Origin: Actinomycetota bacterium
GTDB taxonomy: Bacteria; Actinomycetota; CADDZG01; WHSQ01
DNA length: 61,974 bases
Assembly: GCA_009377815.1 (NCBI GenBank)
Contig: WHTI01000004.1
Span: 1-61,974, forward strand
Direction: 5' to 3'
The notes below the pieces were generated by a model. That model was not told the DNA's origin. It saw only the letters and a list, made by a program, of their open reading frames with translations, and ran no database searches. The position numbers and the translations under genes were made by a program. Numbering within the stretch: the first letter of the stretch is position 1; the number at the start of each line of letters is the position of its first letter. This document shows positions 10,652 to 61,974 of this stretch, piece by piece.

Positions 10652-10666
10652 TTTCAATCCTGCTCG

Positions 10667-10693
10667 GCAGGTCGTCGAGACGACCTGCTTCTG
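10667..10693 (-). repeat. REP-like palindrome, copy A
   Basis: A perfect 10-bp inverted repeat (arms 10667-10676 and 10679-10688, 2-nt centre) carrying a CAGAAGC tag on its minus-strand 5' side (10687-10693). It shares the GGTCGTCGAGACGACC core with copy B. It lies between the stop of a glycosyltransferase gene and the marR promoter and could double as a terminator. Confidence 0.7.
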
Positions 10694-10723
10694 AGCTCAA
10701 AGCGGTCGTCGTGCCGGCGAGTA

Positions 10724-11953
10724 CTAGACAGATCTTGGATTCAGGGTCCCGAACAATTCTTCGTAGGCCCGTGCAACCGCGGCCGGGGAGGCCCACGATT
10801 CGACGAACCCCCGCCCGCTCGCACCCATCGAGGCGGTCCGGGCGGGGTCGTCGAGGAGCGTGCGGATCGCCTTGGTGAAGGCCTCGGAGTCTTCCGGCGG
10901 GACCGCGAGCCCGGCATCGGCGCTCGCGAGGATCCGGGCTACCTCGCTGCCGGCGTCGACGCTCGCGACGACCGGACGACCGGCGGCAAGGATCGAATAG
11001 GTCTTGGACGGAACGCTCGACCGTGCCAAGCCGCGCTTCAACGGCACGAGGTGGATGTCGGCGGCGGCCAGGACCTCACTCAGGCGTTCGACCGGCTGCA
11101 TCGGCGCGAAGACCACGTTGGCAAGTCCGGCCGCCTTCTCCTTGAGCTCATCGAGTGCTGAGCCGCCCCCGTTGATGACGAACGCGAGGTCTTCCTCATA
11201 GGAGAGGGCGGTGGCGGCCGCCAGGATCAGCTCGAAGGACTGCGAGAGTCCGACGTTGCCGGCGTACATGACGACCGTCTTCCCGGTGAGCCCGTGCTCC
11301 GCCCGGTATGAGTTCTCCCGGTCGCCGGGCCGGATCGCCTCGGTGTCCACGAAGTTCGGGATGACGTGGACCTTCGCAGGATCGTCGAGCTTCGCGGTCA
11401 GGTTGTCCTTGAGGTCGTTCGACAGCACGGTGATCGCGTCTGAACGCGCGTAGCAGAGGCGCTCAAGTCGGTACGCCGCCGCGATGGCGCGCTTGCCCTT
11501 TAGAGCGCCGACCTCGATGGCAACGTCTGGGTAGACATCCTGGATGTTGAAGACGAGAGGCGCCTTGCGCTTCTTGGCTACCGCCCAGCCGGTCAGACCG
11601 AGGGTGAGTGGTGGCGACATGGCGAGGACTCCGTCGACCGGATCCCCACGCATCCCTTGGGCCGCGGCCAGCGCGCTGAACCCGCCGAACGCGGCTGCTC
11701 GGCGGAGGATGTTCCGCTTGTCCTGGGTGGGAAAGGGATTCATCCGCGTGATGCGTCCCCAGGGAACGTCCTCGTGACGGGTCCACTTCCCCTCGTAGCC
11801 GGGCTCGATGCTGTGGTCGCGGTACCAGGGAAGCGATGTCAAGACCTCGATCGTGTGACCCCGTCCGGCAAGTTCGTGAACGATCCTCGTGATGACCGCG
11901 CCGGTGGGGGCCAGGTCCGGTTCGAAGTGGGGACAGACAACCGCCAGTTTCAC
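10724..11953 (-). CDS. Glycosyltransferase family 4, WcaI/WbuB-like
   Basis: A 409-residue GT-B fold transferase that moves a sugar from a nucleotide donor to a growing surface glycan at the cytoplasmic membrane. The N-terminal half begins MKLAVVCPHFEPDLAPTGAVI, typical of WcaI-like enzymes. The C-terminal donor domain contains TVVMYAGNVGLSQSFE and VPSKTYSILAAGRPVVAS. GTG start at 11953 overlaps the preceding stop in a GTGA (11950-11953), so it is translationally coupled to the upstream glycosyltransferase. Donor and acceptor are not predictable from sequence. Confidence 0.9.
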   Translation of the reverse strand: MKLAVVCPHFEPDLAPTGAVITRIVHELAGRGHTIEVLTSLPWYRDHSIEPGYEGKWTRHEDVPWGRITRMNPFPTQDKRNILRRAAAFGGFSALAAAQGMRGDPVDGVLAMSPPLTLGLTGWAVAKKRKAPLVFNIQDVYPDVAIEVGALKGKRAIAAAYRLERLCYARSDAITVLSNDLKDNLTAKLDDPAKVHVIPNFVDTEAIRPGDRENSYRAEHGLTGKTVVMYAGNVGLSQSFELILAAATALSYEEDLAFVINGGGSALDELKEKAAGLANVVFAPMQPVERLSEVLAAADIHLVPLKRGLARSSVPSKTYSILAAGRPVVASVDAGSEVARILASADAGLAVPPEDSEAFTKAIRTLLDDPARTASMGASGRGFVESWASPAAVARAYEELFGTLNPRSV

Positions 11954-13077
11954 AGCGTGGTTTCCAGCGCGTGACGGTAGGAGCTCTCGAGGATGTTGGC
12001 CGCCTGATCCCAGGTGAACGCGCCGGCGCGTTCGATCCCTTTCTTGACGAGGATCGAGCGCAGGTTGTCGTCATCGAGCAGCTCGGTCATCGCCTGGGAC
12101 CATTGCTCGGGATTGTCGGGGGACACCATCAAGCCGGCCTCGTCCACGACCTCGGGCAGCGCGGTGGCGTCCGCGGCGATCACCGGGCACCCCCGGGCCA
12201 TCGCTTCCAGCACCGGAGCGCCGAAGCCCTCGAAGCGTGACGGGAAGGTCATCGCGACGGCCTCTCGGTAGAGAGCATCGAGATCGTGCGACGGGATGTA
12301 GCCGAGCCGCTTCACCCGTCCGGCGATCCCTTGCTCCTTGATCTCCTGCGCGAGACGCACCTCCATCGAGCCCTTCGCTCCGGTGAACACCAGGGTGGTG
12401 TCGGGATACATCTTCGCGACGCGGGCGAACGCTTCGATGAGGACGAGATGGTTCTTGTGCGGATAGGTGATCGCCGGATAGAGGAAGAACCGGCCCTCGA
12501 TCCCGTATCGCTTTCTGACGCTCGAATCGTCTTCCGACGACACACGCGGTGAGATCCCGTGCGGGACGACGACGACGATGCTCGGGTCGATGTTGAGTCG
12601 TTCGATCACCGTGCGGCGGGAGTATTCACTTGGGGTTAGTACGAGACGGGCCGCCTCGGCCGAGCGCGGCACCATGCGCTTGAGGTAGGCGAGCTTCGTC
12701 GTCGAGAAGTACTCGGGGTAATAGAGGTACTGAAGGTCATGGATCGTGAGCACCGGGCGCGCCGTCCGAACGATGGGAACCACACCACCGGCGTGATGGA
12801 CGAGGTCGATCTTCCGCTTCCGGCACTGGGCCGCGAGCCATGAGTTCTCGCCGGCGACGCGGAACGACTTGAACTGTCCCGACACCGGCGCGAAGGCGAT
12901 CTTGAAGGTTTTCGAGAGGTCGGGGTAGGCCTCGGCGAACTGAGGCAGGGCGAAGATCGTGTAGTCGAACTCGGTGGGACGCTCCGCCAGGCCCTGGAGA
13001 AGGCGCGTGGTGTAGGTCTCGGAGCCACCCACGACCCCGGGAACCATCCACAACATGTTGATGCCGACCTTCTCCAT
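11950..13077 (-). CDS. Glycosyltransferase family 4
   Basis: A 375-residue GT4 enzyme. N-terminal GINMLWMVPGVVGGSETYTTR binds the acceptor side. The donor domain has the FLYPAITYPHKNH strand and the E-x7-E motif in FEGFGAPVLEAMARGCPVIA. The ATG at 13077 is chosen over an upstream in-frame start because GGAGG lies 5-10 nt before it and the protein then begins MEKVGINML. REP-like copy B lies right at the 5' edge of this ribosome site, within the mRNA leader. It is coupled to the next gene by GTGA. Confidence 0.92.
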   Translation of the reverse strand: MEKVGINMLWMVPGVVGGSETYTTRLLQGLAERPTEFDYTIFALPQFAEAYPDLSKTFKIAFAPVSGQFKSFRVAGENSWLAAQCRKRKIDLVHHAGGVVPIVRTARPVLTIHDLQYLYYPEYFSTTKLAYLKRMVPRSAEAARLVLTPSEYSRRTVIERLNIDPSIVVVVPHGISPRVSSEDDSSVRKRYGIEGRFFLYPAITYPHKNHLVLIEAFARVAKMYPDTTLVFTGAKGSMEVRLAQEIKEQGIAGRVKRLGYIPSHDLDALYREAVAMTFPSRFEGFGAPVLEAMARGCPVIAADATALPEVVDEAGLMVSPDNPEQWSQAMTELLDDDNLRSILVKKGIERAGAFTWDQAANILESSYRHALETTL

Positions 13078-13086
13078 TTTCCTCCT

Positions 13087-13113
13087 GCCGGTCGTCGAGA
13101 CGACCGGCTTCTG
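13087..13113 (-). repeat. REP-like palindrome, copy B
   Basis: A perfect 10-bp inverted repeat (arms 13087-13096 and 13099-13108) followed on the plus strand by GCTTCTG. It differs from copy A at one base pair, changed on both arms (A-T to C-G), which preserves the stem. It lies between two glycosyltransferase genes. Confidence 0.7.
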
Positions 13114-13161
13114 TGTCCTCAACGCCTGATCCGCCGTGGAGTCTCTCTCCTATCGCTCTGC

Positions 13162-14262
13162 CTAGTTCTTCTCGGCGAGTTCTTGGTAGACCTCACCCAA
13201 GAGCTCGGCGGTGCGGTCCCATGAGAAGTGCGCCGCGCGCTCCTTACCTCGGGCCCCCAGCTCGGCGGCGAACGAGTCATTCTCCAGCACCTTGGCAAGA
13301 CCCTTTGCGATCGAGCCGGGATCGGTCGGATCGATCAAGACCACCGCGTCCCCACCGATCTCTTCAGTCGATGTGCCCCGAGAGGTTACGACGGGCGTGC
13401 CCTGGGTCATGGCTTCGAGGACGGGGAAGCCGAATCCCTCGGCGAAGCTCGGAAAGGTGAATACCGAGGCTCCGGCATAGAGCGGACCGAGGTCGCCCGC
13501 CGGCACGAAGCCGAGGGGCTTCACCCGGTCCCCGAGGGGCTCGATCAGGGCGGTGATGTCCTCGTTCCAGCCCTTGGGGCCGACGAGCACGAGATCGGCG
13601 TTCGCATCGAGGGCGCGGAATGCCTGAAGAAGACCGTGGAGGTTCTTGCGAGGCTCGACCGTTCCGGTCCACAGGATGTAGGGGCGCTCGAGCAAGTAGG
13701 TCGCCCGGACCCGATCGACCGCGGTGGTCGTGGCGGCCTCGGAGCGCACGCCGAGCGGAACCATACGGAGGCGTTCGGGGGGGAATCCGGCGGTCTCCGC
13801 GTCCGCCCACACCGCCTTAGACGAGCAGAGCACGAGGTCGACGTCGGCAAGGGCGAGCTGGAGATTGCGGCGGAAGAACCTCAGCCCGTGGGCGGTGAAG
13901 TGCTCCGGGTACCTCACGAAGGCGAGGTCGTGGATCGTGAGAGCCATCGGTCGGGTTCGGGGAGGCACCGCGATGGTCGTGGCGTGGATGACATCGACCG
14001 GGCCCGAGGCTCGCTCCACCTTGGGGACCCGGACCCGGGACCACGCCTCGTACAGGGGGATGCGGGGGAGCGCCAGGTGGCGGACAGGGATCGGGGGCAC
14101 GAACGGTTCAGGAGGCGGCCGCCGGTGCCGGGCCGCGACCCCCACGAGTTCGGCGAGTCCCGCCTCGGTTATTGCCCGCGCCATCTCGATGCCGGCGACC
14201 GCGGTCCCCCCGGGCACCGCGTGCCAGCACTGCTCGATCGTGTAGGCGACCTTAGGTCTCAC
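13162..14262 (-). CDS. Glycosyltransferase family 4
   Basis: A 366-residue GT4 enzyme. It has the TGTVEPRKNLHGLLQAF nucleotide-sugar motif typical of mannosyl- and rhamnosyltransferase-like proteins, and the E-x7-E motif AEGFGFPVLEAMTQGTPVV. A GTG start at 14262 is preferred because GGGAGGA precedes it and the family-like N-terminus is VRPKVAYTIEQCWHAVPGG. An in-frame start 51 nt upstream would add an unlikely leader. First gene of the leftward glycosyltransferase run. Confidence 0.9.
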   Translation of the reverse strand: MRPKVAYTIEQCWHAVPGGTAVAGIEMARAITEAGLAELVGVAARHRRPPPEPFVPPIPVRHLALPRIPLYEAWSRVRVPKVERASGPVDVIHATTIAVPPRTRPMALTIHDLAFVRYPEHFTAHGLRFFRRNLQLALADVDLVLCSSKAVWADAETAGFPPERLRMVPLGVRSEAATTTAVDRVRATYLLERPYILWTGTVEPRKNLHGLLQAFRALDANADLVLVGPKGWNEDITALIEPLGDRVKPLGFVPAGDLGPLYAGASVFTFPSFAEGFGFPVLEAMTQGTPVVTSRGTSTEEIGGDAVVLIDPTDPGSIAKGLAKVLENDSFAAELGARGKERAAHFSWDRTAELLGEVYQELAEKN

Positions 14263-14508
14263 GCCGTCATCCTCCCAGAGCCCGCGCTGTGACGGGGCCC
14301 ACTCCCGTCCCACCCAAAGCCCTCAAGAATCAAACCCAAGATCAAAGGCAAGGAGCGGGGCCCTTCGGCCCCCGCCCGATCATCCAGAGTCAAAACCAAC
14401 CCCCGGAAACACCGCAGAGAACGCCGCGTTTTACCGCACAGAACCCCGCCCTAGGCCCCCGCGATCGAGCCCGAACCAGGGGGCTCCGCCCCCTCCTCAA
14501 GGTGCTCA

Positions 14509-14570
14509 TTTCGCGCACAAAACCCCTTAAGCAATCGCTAGAGCAAGCTCCAGGGGTTTTGTGCGCGGAA
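14509..14570. repeat. Long inverted repeat, 19-bp stem with 24-nt loop
   Basis: Arms 14509-14527 and 14552-14570 pair over 19 bp (one G.T). The core is GCGCACAAAACCCCT and its complement. The loop contains a second small palindrome, GAGCAAGCTC (14541-14550). It is the longest stem I found in the window. Confidence 0.7.
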
Positions 14571-14699
14571 TGGGGACTTGGGTGTGGGGGCGAAACCCCT
14601 TGTGGGGGAGGGAGGAGACAGGAGACACACCTCCTGAGGCCCCGCCGAGCTCGGAGCCGGTCGCCGAGACCTAGCACCCGTGCGGTCGGCGAGGCCAAA

Positions 14700-19495: not shown

Positions 19496-19525
19496 GACGC
19501 CGAGGATGGCGACCACTGGATAACG

Positions 19526-19560
19526 CAGAAGCGGGCCGCCTCGGCGGGACGCAGAACAAG
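19526..19560 (+). repeat. REP-like palindrome, copy E
   Basis: A CAGAAGC tag (19526-19532) leads into an imperfect palindrome (19531-19552; 8 of 10 pairs, central CCGCC-TC-GGCGG) followed by AGAACA. It closely matches copies C and D in both core and flank. It lies in the gap before the epimerase gene. Confidence 0.6.
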
Positions 19561-19573
19561 ATGGAGGATTAGA

Positions 19574-35570: not shown

Positions 35571-35598
35571 GCGATTCCGCCTAGGCGAATCGCTTCTG
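35571..35598 (-). repeat. REP-like palindrome, copy C
   Basis: Nearly perfect palindrome (core GATTC-CGCCTAGGC-GAATC, 35571-35593) with the CAGAAGC tag on its minus-strand 5' side (35592-35598). On the minus strand it matches copy D through the core and the following AAACAAAATG-like flank. Confidence 0.7.
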
Positions 35599-39882: not shown

Positions 39883-39957
39883 GCCAAAAAACCAGGCACA
39901 AGCCGCCACGCAGCGCGCCGGTCGGAGACTCCTCGAAGAGGCAAGCCACCGCGGATC

Positions 39958-39996
39958 CAGAAGCGATCCGCCTAGGCGGGATCGCAGAACAGAGTG
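39958..39996 (+). repeat. REP-like palindrome, copy D
   Basis: CAGAAGC tag, then a palindromic core GATCCGCCTAGGCGGGATC (39965-39983), then GCAGAACAGAGTG. Compared with copy C, one stem base pair is T-A there and C-G here, a compensatory difference. Confidence 0.7.
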
Positions 39997-61755: not shown

Positions 61756-61974
61756 GGGGCTGAACTGGTATCGACCTCGACCGAACCGAGATAGAAGAAG
61801 CGAGCCGAGGACTCCCGGTGTGACCTCGTTAATCCTCTGGGAAACTTATACCTGCCGCTGCGTAATGCACGGTTGCCATCACCTAAATGATGGCCGTCGG
61901 CCCGAGATGAGCCTGCGATCTCGGAACCCGGCGTCGTCTAGCAGGCTTACCGTCTGAAGTTCGTTCGAGGCGAA
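61756..61974 (+). ncRNA. ssrA: tmRNA (5' part; truncated by the window end)
   Basis: The 5' end GGGGCTGAACTGGTATCGAC matches the conserved tmRNA acceptor/D-arm start. A pseudoknot PK1 can be drawn: stem 1 CGAGG (61806-61810) with CCTCG (61824-61828), stem 2 TCCCGG (61813-61818) with CTGGGA (61837-61842). After the tag region a hairpin (GCCATCA...TGATGGC) and the conserved GGCGTCGTCTAGCAGG follow. The 3' half including the CCA end lies outside. The tag frame is unusual (see findings). Confidence 0.9.

Follow-up and report, generated by a model that had tools for sequence, protein, structure and literature searches.

The closest described systems to the repeats reported here are the GTAG REPs and REPINs, which, according to PMC3733652 and PMC3116915, are short dispersed hairpins, mostly intergenic and present in dozens of copies, with stem sub-lineages, tandem or grouped copies and lineage-specific amplification. 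The CGTC-tagged REPs, which include RPE-4 and RPE-6 of Rickettsia, have 8-9-bp stems and 4-5-nt loops and are a precedent for palindromic repeats that lack a dedicated transposase; no Actinobacteria are listed among their carriers (PMC3733652). Two further systems bear on the comparison. MITEs are small, non-autonomous, gene-adjacent insertions with empty sites, and inverted repeats can be reshaped by template switching, of which spacer inversion is a footprint according to PMC8604942, and in which homogenisation of one arm against the other can yield paired changes without selection (PMC8794818).

In the window analysed here, a 61,974-nt stretch of the genome of an uncultured member of the Actinomycetota (contig WHTI01000004.1 of assembly GCA_009377815.1), we found five hairpins, A to E, that probably represent a non-autonomous mobile element of the REP-like kind, about 75-100 bp long and mobilised in trans by a putative enzyme. 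The family shares with the GTAG REPs and REPINs the features listed above, but it has no unpaired GTAG tag, its hairpins being preceded by TGTTYKG and usually followed by TTCTG or TCTCG, and its inserted unit is longer, at 75-100 nt. Its stem and loop sizes are those of the CGTC REPs, but here the CGTC is paired within the apex and does not form an unpaired tag at the end; a CCA tail is lacking, and the stem begins with G-C and C-G pairs where the CGTC REPs have A-T. As with MITEs, whole units (A, B and D) are absent from a related genome, whereas the palindrome stands at one side of the unit and does not appear to be made of terminal inverted repeats. Compensated double changes, together with loop inversion in two copies, recall the quasi-palindromes attributed to template switching in PMC8794818 and PMC8604942, but those are single-locus mutations, whereas here whole units are dispersed and inserted.

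The best-conserved part of the element is the 9-bp hairpin, usually with a CGAG apex. Copy A (positions 10667-10688, + strand) was recognised from its sequence, GCAGGTCGTCGAGACGACCTGC, which divides into GCAGGTCGTC GA GACGACCTGC and forms a 9-bp hairpin with a CGAG loop, and it scored 57.3 bits with covariance model R1. Its inserted unit extends over about 10657-10740, with TCCTGCTCG as the 5′ flank and a 3′ tail of TTCTG followed by a less conserved 3′ stretch. Copy B (13087-13108, + strand; GCCGGTCGTCGAGACGACCGGC, that is, GCCGGTCGTC GA GACGACCGGC), found from the sequence and by covariance-model scan, has the same 9-bp stem and CGAG loop and is likewise followed directly by TTCTG. Its unit (about 13087-13162) abuts, on the upstream side, the start codon and Shine-Dalgarno sequence of an opposite-strand glycosyltransferase gene (11950-13077), and the span from A to B is ordinary glycosyltransferase coding sequence. 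The only difference between A and B is a change from A-T to C-G at stem pair 3, as the preliminary description had reported, although the range given there, 10667-13113, takes in these two copies only. Copies C (35571-35593, + strand; GCGATTCCGCCTAGGCGAATCGC) and D (39963-39985, - strand; GCGATCCCGCCTAGGCGGATCGC), located by covariance-model scan and flank search, belong to a subtype with a bulged C and a CTAG apex, and the replacement of one T-A stem pair by C-G on both arms that had been noted between them, at that time without coordinates, is indeed present. In C, the hairpin is followed by TTCTG and then by a 3′ stretch that closes with GGCATCGAGTCCCCGACC (to about 35637), while the unit of D covers about 39890-39990. 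Copy E (19531-19552, - strand), found by covariance-model scan, reads GCGTCCCGC CGAG GCGGCCCGC and carries a 2x2 internal mismatch; the subtype represented by E (at 19519-19564 with its flanks) recurs, with the 2x2 mismatch kept, in L042, L043 and L044, of which at least L042 adjoins a tRNA gene. Folded as DNA, A and B reach about -10 to -11 kcal/mol, better than 200 of 200 shuffles, and the number of palindrome hits was reached by none of 100 dinucleotide shuffles. These palindromes are beyond chance.

Other members of the class have few or no copies of the hairpin family, whose amplification is lineage-specific. The genome that carries the window (G000; 3.6 Mb) contains 14 occurrences of a 16-nt core, compared to 0 of a reversed control. 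A first covariance model, built from these 14 core copies, retrieved about 30 copies in G000. With a second model, built from 58 copies and used at a cut-off of E <= 1e-5, we counted, among the best 150 candidates scored in each of these fragmented draft genomes, about 37 copies in G000 and about 49 in G001, the sole congeneric genome in our comparison, which represents one other species. On the same basis, G010 holds 3 copies and G003 holds 1, while no copy was present among the best 150 candidates in each of the remaining 20 genomes of the class; under a stricter pattern, no carriers were found among viral sequences. The common 5′ flank of the copies is T(C/T)TGTTYKG. The 3′ tail is usually TTCTG, is TCTCG in some copies and is different again in others, and a subset carries the additional 3′ motif GGCATCGAGTCYCCGACC. 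In G001 there are also tandem arrays, each sharing one hairpin type (L095, L077 and L088). The array at L095 (1153-1254, - strand) consists of three head-to-tail 30-nt units, TCTGTTTGGCGATTCGTCGAGACGAATCGC, and apparently lies within a predicted coding region on the opposite strand.

We then asked how the stems vary. In register, 78 copies represent 41 distinct hairpins, among which 94.0% of the pair cells are standard pairs, compared to 77.8% when the 3′ letters are shuffled, and 59 cells are altered on both sides, compared to 16.6. The excess of paired changes that the preliminary description had proposed as the test for an expanded alignment was thus found: the covariation score is 0.433 against 0.147 after shuffling, a value reached by none of 500 shuffles, and the signal is destroyed by sliding the partners. 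The apex pairs 6-9 are nearly invariant. Since retrieval with a model rewards pairing, it was repeated with a structure-blind pattern, GNNNNTCGTCGAGACGANNNNC, in which nothing but the apex and a single foot pair is specified. This yielded 56 copies (22 in G000 and 34 in G001) against 1 control hit, and in this set 200 of the 224 free pairs (89%) are Watson-Crick, whereas 2000 shuffles of the arms give a mean of 122.7 (55%) and never exceed 144. Where distinct hairpins are separated by exactly two changes, both changes affect the same base pair in 21 of 29 comparisons (expected, 4/28). When the distinct hairpins are linked in a minimum spanning tree, the two-change steps are paired in 9 of 14 cases, next to 21 single-change steps. 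The copies are paralogous descendants, and they therefore do not count as independent events. Double transversions (C-G to G-C, G-C to T-A) are frequent among the paired changes, and G.T and A.C mismatches are equally common in the distinct hairpins, with 8 of each. Pairing is maintained beyond drift.

Comparison with G001 showed how the units come and go. The G001 DNA orthologous to the surroundings of A, B and D is 73-87% identical to the window, and alignment showed that each of the three units is cleanly absent there, leaving gaps of about 75-100 nt. The flanks of these empty sites are too diverged for a target-site duplication to be read. Each unit has a single hairpin, which lies towards its 5′ end, and terminal repeats were not seen. 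Other sites are occupied in both genomes. Copy E is also present in G001, where 33 of 34 nt are identical over the hairpin and its immediate flanks while the surroundings are 55-77% identical, and two more shared sites, L031/L078 and L035/L072, have kept an identical 22-nt hairpin between flanks that are again 55-77% identical. Two further shared sites have diverged, one of them, L028/L100, with a tandem duplication in G001. The presence or absence of whole units, together with the lineage-specific amplification, indicates a mobile element. Judged from these alignments, the copies appear to behave as insertions, although at any single site a precise loss in G001, instead of a gain in G000, is possible.

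All five window copies are intergenic according to gene calls made with a simple home-made hexamer caller, as are about four-fifths of the copies in three genomes, and most of the others run antisense across the 3′ end of a gene. In several cases, copies lie antisense over the last codons of a gene and apparently provide its stop codon (L021, L030 and L039 in G000; L071, L084, L085, L092 and L096 in G001). The neighbours include the genes for RNase HII, lumazine synthase, ScpB, ribosomal protein L11 and fumarase as well as tRNA genes, which several copies abut at either end. The neighbouring proteins that were examined showed no transposase domain.

This context bears on the possibility that the hairpin acts as RNA. 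The preliminary description had taken the paired changes as evidence of selection on a folded RNA or a cruciform; the part of this claim that holds is that pairing is kept beyond drift, while a folded RNA is unsupported by placement, Rfam, gene function or wobble bias. A cis-acting translation or stability element, or a leader, selected to fold in transcripts would be consistent with the strong covariation, with the many copies that end, on the gene strand, 9-27 nt ahead of a start codon (B, E, L024, L070 and L086), and with a weak hint of a second helix in the TTCTG class (p 0.0096, in one of nine comparisons). We nevertheless consider it unlikely, because placement is mixed (of the copies flanked by co-directional genes, 25 are antisense and 15 sense; divergent genes flank 12 others and convergent genes 7), the 30 neighbouring proteins that were compared have no common function, no Rfam family matches the hairpin copies, and the equal numbers of G.T and A.C mismatches, small as they are, reveal no strand bias. 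A riboswitch or leader, or a shared regulon, was rejected since the 5′-UTR position is inconsistent and the neighbour proteins are unrelated. Intrinsic terminators are very unlikely, although the 9-bp stem is GC-rich, B (but not A) passes a simple terminator scan with the tail TTCTGTGT, and L016, L025 and L036 lie in sense orientation directly after a stop codon. A, B, D and E are antisense to the genes on both sides, antisense copies outnumber sense copies overall, the conserved tail (TTCTG or TCTCG) has no T run, and copies are also found between divergent genes and at the 5′ ends of tRNA genes; a terminator role was accordingly rejected on orientation. Single copies, such as B and E, which lie just 5′ of a ribosome-binding site, may still affect the neighbouring gene.

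The remaining accounts concern DNA. The near-perfect dyad around the conserved TCGTC-GA-GACGA core could suggest operator sites of a dimeric DNA-binding protein, in which half-site symmetry mimics covariation. This is highly improbable, since independent preferences of the half-sites would not force the outer pairs to change jointly within a site, as they do in the two-change comparisons, and since the insertions, 75-100 nt long, are present or absent as complete units. A much more serious alternative, which is quite possible even though we doubt it, is that the covariation is mainly mutational and arises without selection on the fold, one arm being overwritten with the sequence of the other by template switching at the replication fork. 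The loop is inverted to CTCG, with the orientation of the flanks, including the 5′ flank, retained, in two G001 copies (L078, 1501-1546; L094, 1501-1546, - strand), and these inverted loops are suggestive of template switching. The double transversions also fit, as they are common and have no wobble intermediate, and template switching is a documented source of compensatory changes (PMC8794818). On the other hand, the orthologous hairpins described above are identical, or nearly so in the case of E, within diverged flanks, suggesting constraint; blind homogenisation would not leave the apex pairs hardly varying; and stable mismatched subtypes, such as the T.C/C.C mismatches in GCGTCCCGC, remain uncorrected. 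The data are therefore compatible with contributions to the covariation from both selection for a foldable hairpin and correction of the arms by template switching, and do not tell the two apart.

We therefore return to the REP-like mobile element as the preferred reading; the family looks like a new lineage of REP-type repeats and not like a gene-control RNA. In the proposed mechanism, a putative enzyme acting in trans would copy or move the element, recognising its hairpin in single-stranded DNA or as a cruciform. If only foldable hairpins were propagated, stem sub-lineages that differ by compensated pairs would result, and template switching from arm to arm probably helps to restore pairing. 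Effects on neighbouring transcripts would be secondary, if there are any. The Y1/RAYT transposase domain (PF01797), the partner of GTAG REPs, is absent from the carrier genomes G000 (96.6% complete), G001 and G010, while controls were positive, and a RAYT/REP partnership was rejected on this ground. A more specific version of the proposal, which we offer tentatively and regard as rather unlikely, is that the unit is a structured element of about 80-100 nt whose 5′ hairpin covaries and whose 3′ part forms a second, variable domain, and that it spreads within a single actinobacterial genus with no Y1-family tyrosine HUH transposase, by way of a hairpin-recognising enzyme of a REP-like mobilisation class not yet described. 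For the 3′ stretch, candidate pairings (P2/P3) in the TTCTG class gave p values of 0.0096 (by permutation) and 0.057 in a weak test with nine comparisons, and nothing consistent was found for a structured 3′ domain outside that class.

Two other features of the window were recorded. A second dispersed repeat family lies at 14350-14600 (GGGGGCTCCGCCCCC..., ...CTCAAGGTG...CGCACA...AACCCC) and contains a 56-nt imperfect inverted repeat; it has a near copy downstream of L018 and about 12 weak matches in G001. A tmRNA gene (RF00023, 52.9 bits) is truncated by the contig end, so that the window holds only its 5′ part (61756-61974).

These findings describe a palindromic family of the Actinomycetota that has neither the known REP tags nor the known REP transposase, and in which entire units can nevertheless be present in one of two related genomes and absent from the other. 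The family offers dozens of paralogous hairpins as well as orthologous pairs, empty sites and loop inversions, and constitutes a natural data set that is suited to splitting stem covariation into the parts due to selection and to template switching, a distinction that bears on the use of covariation as evidence of RNA function.
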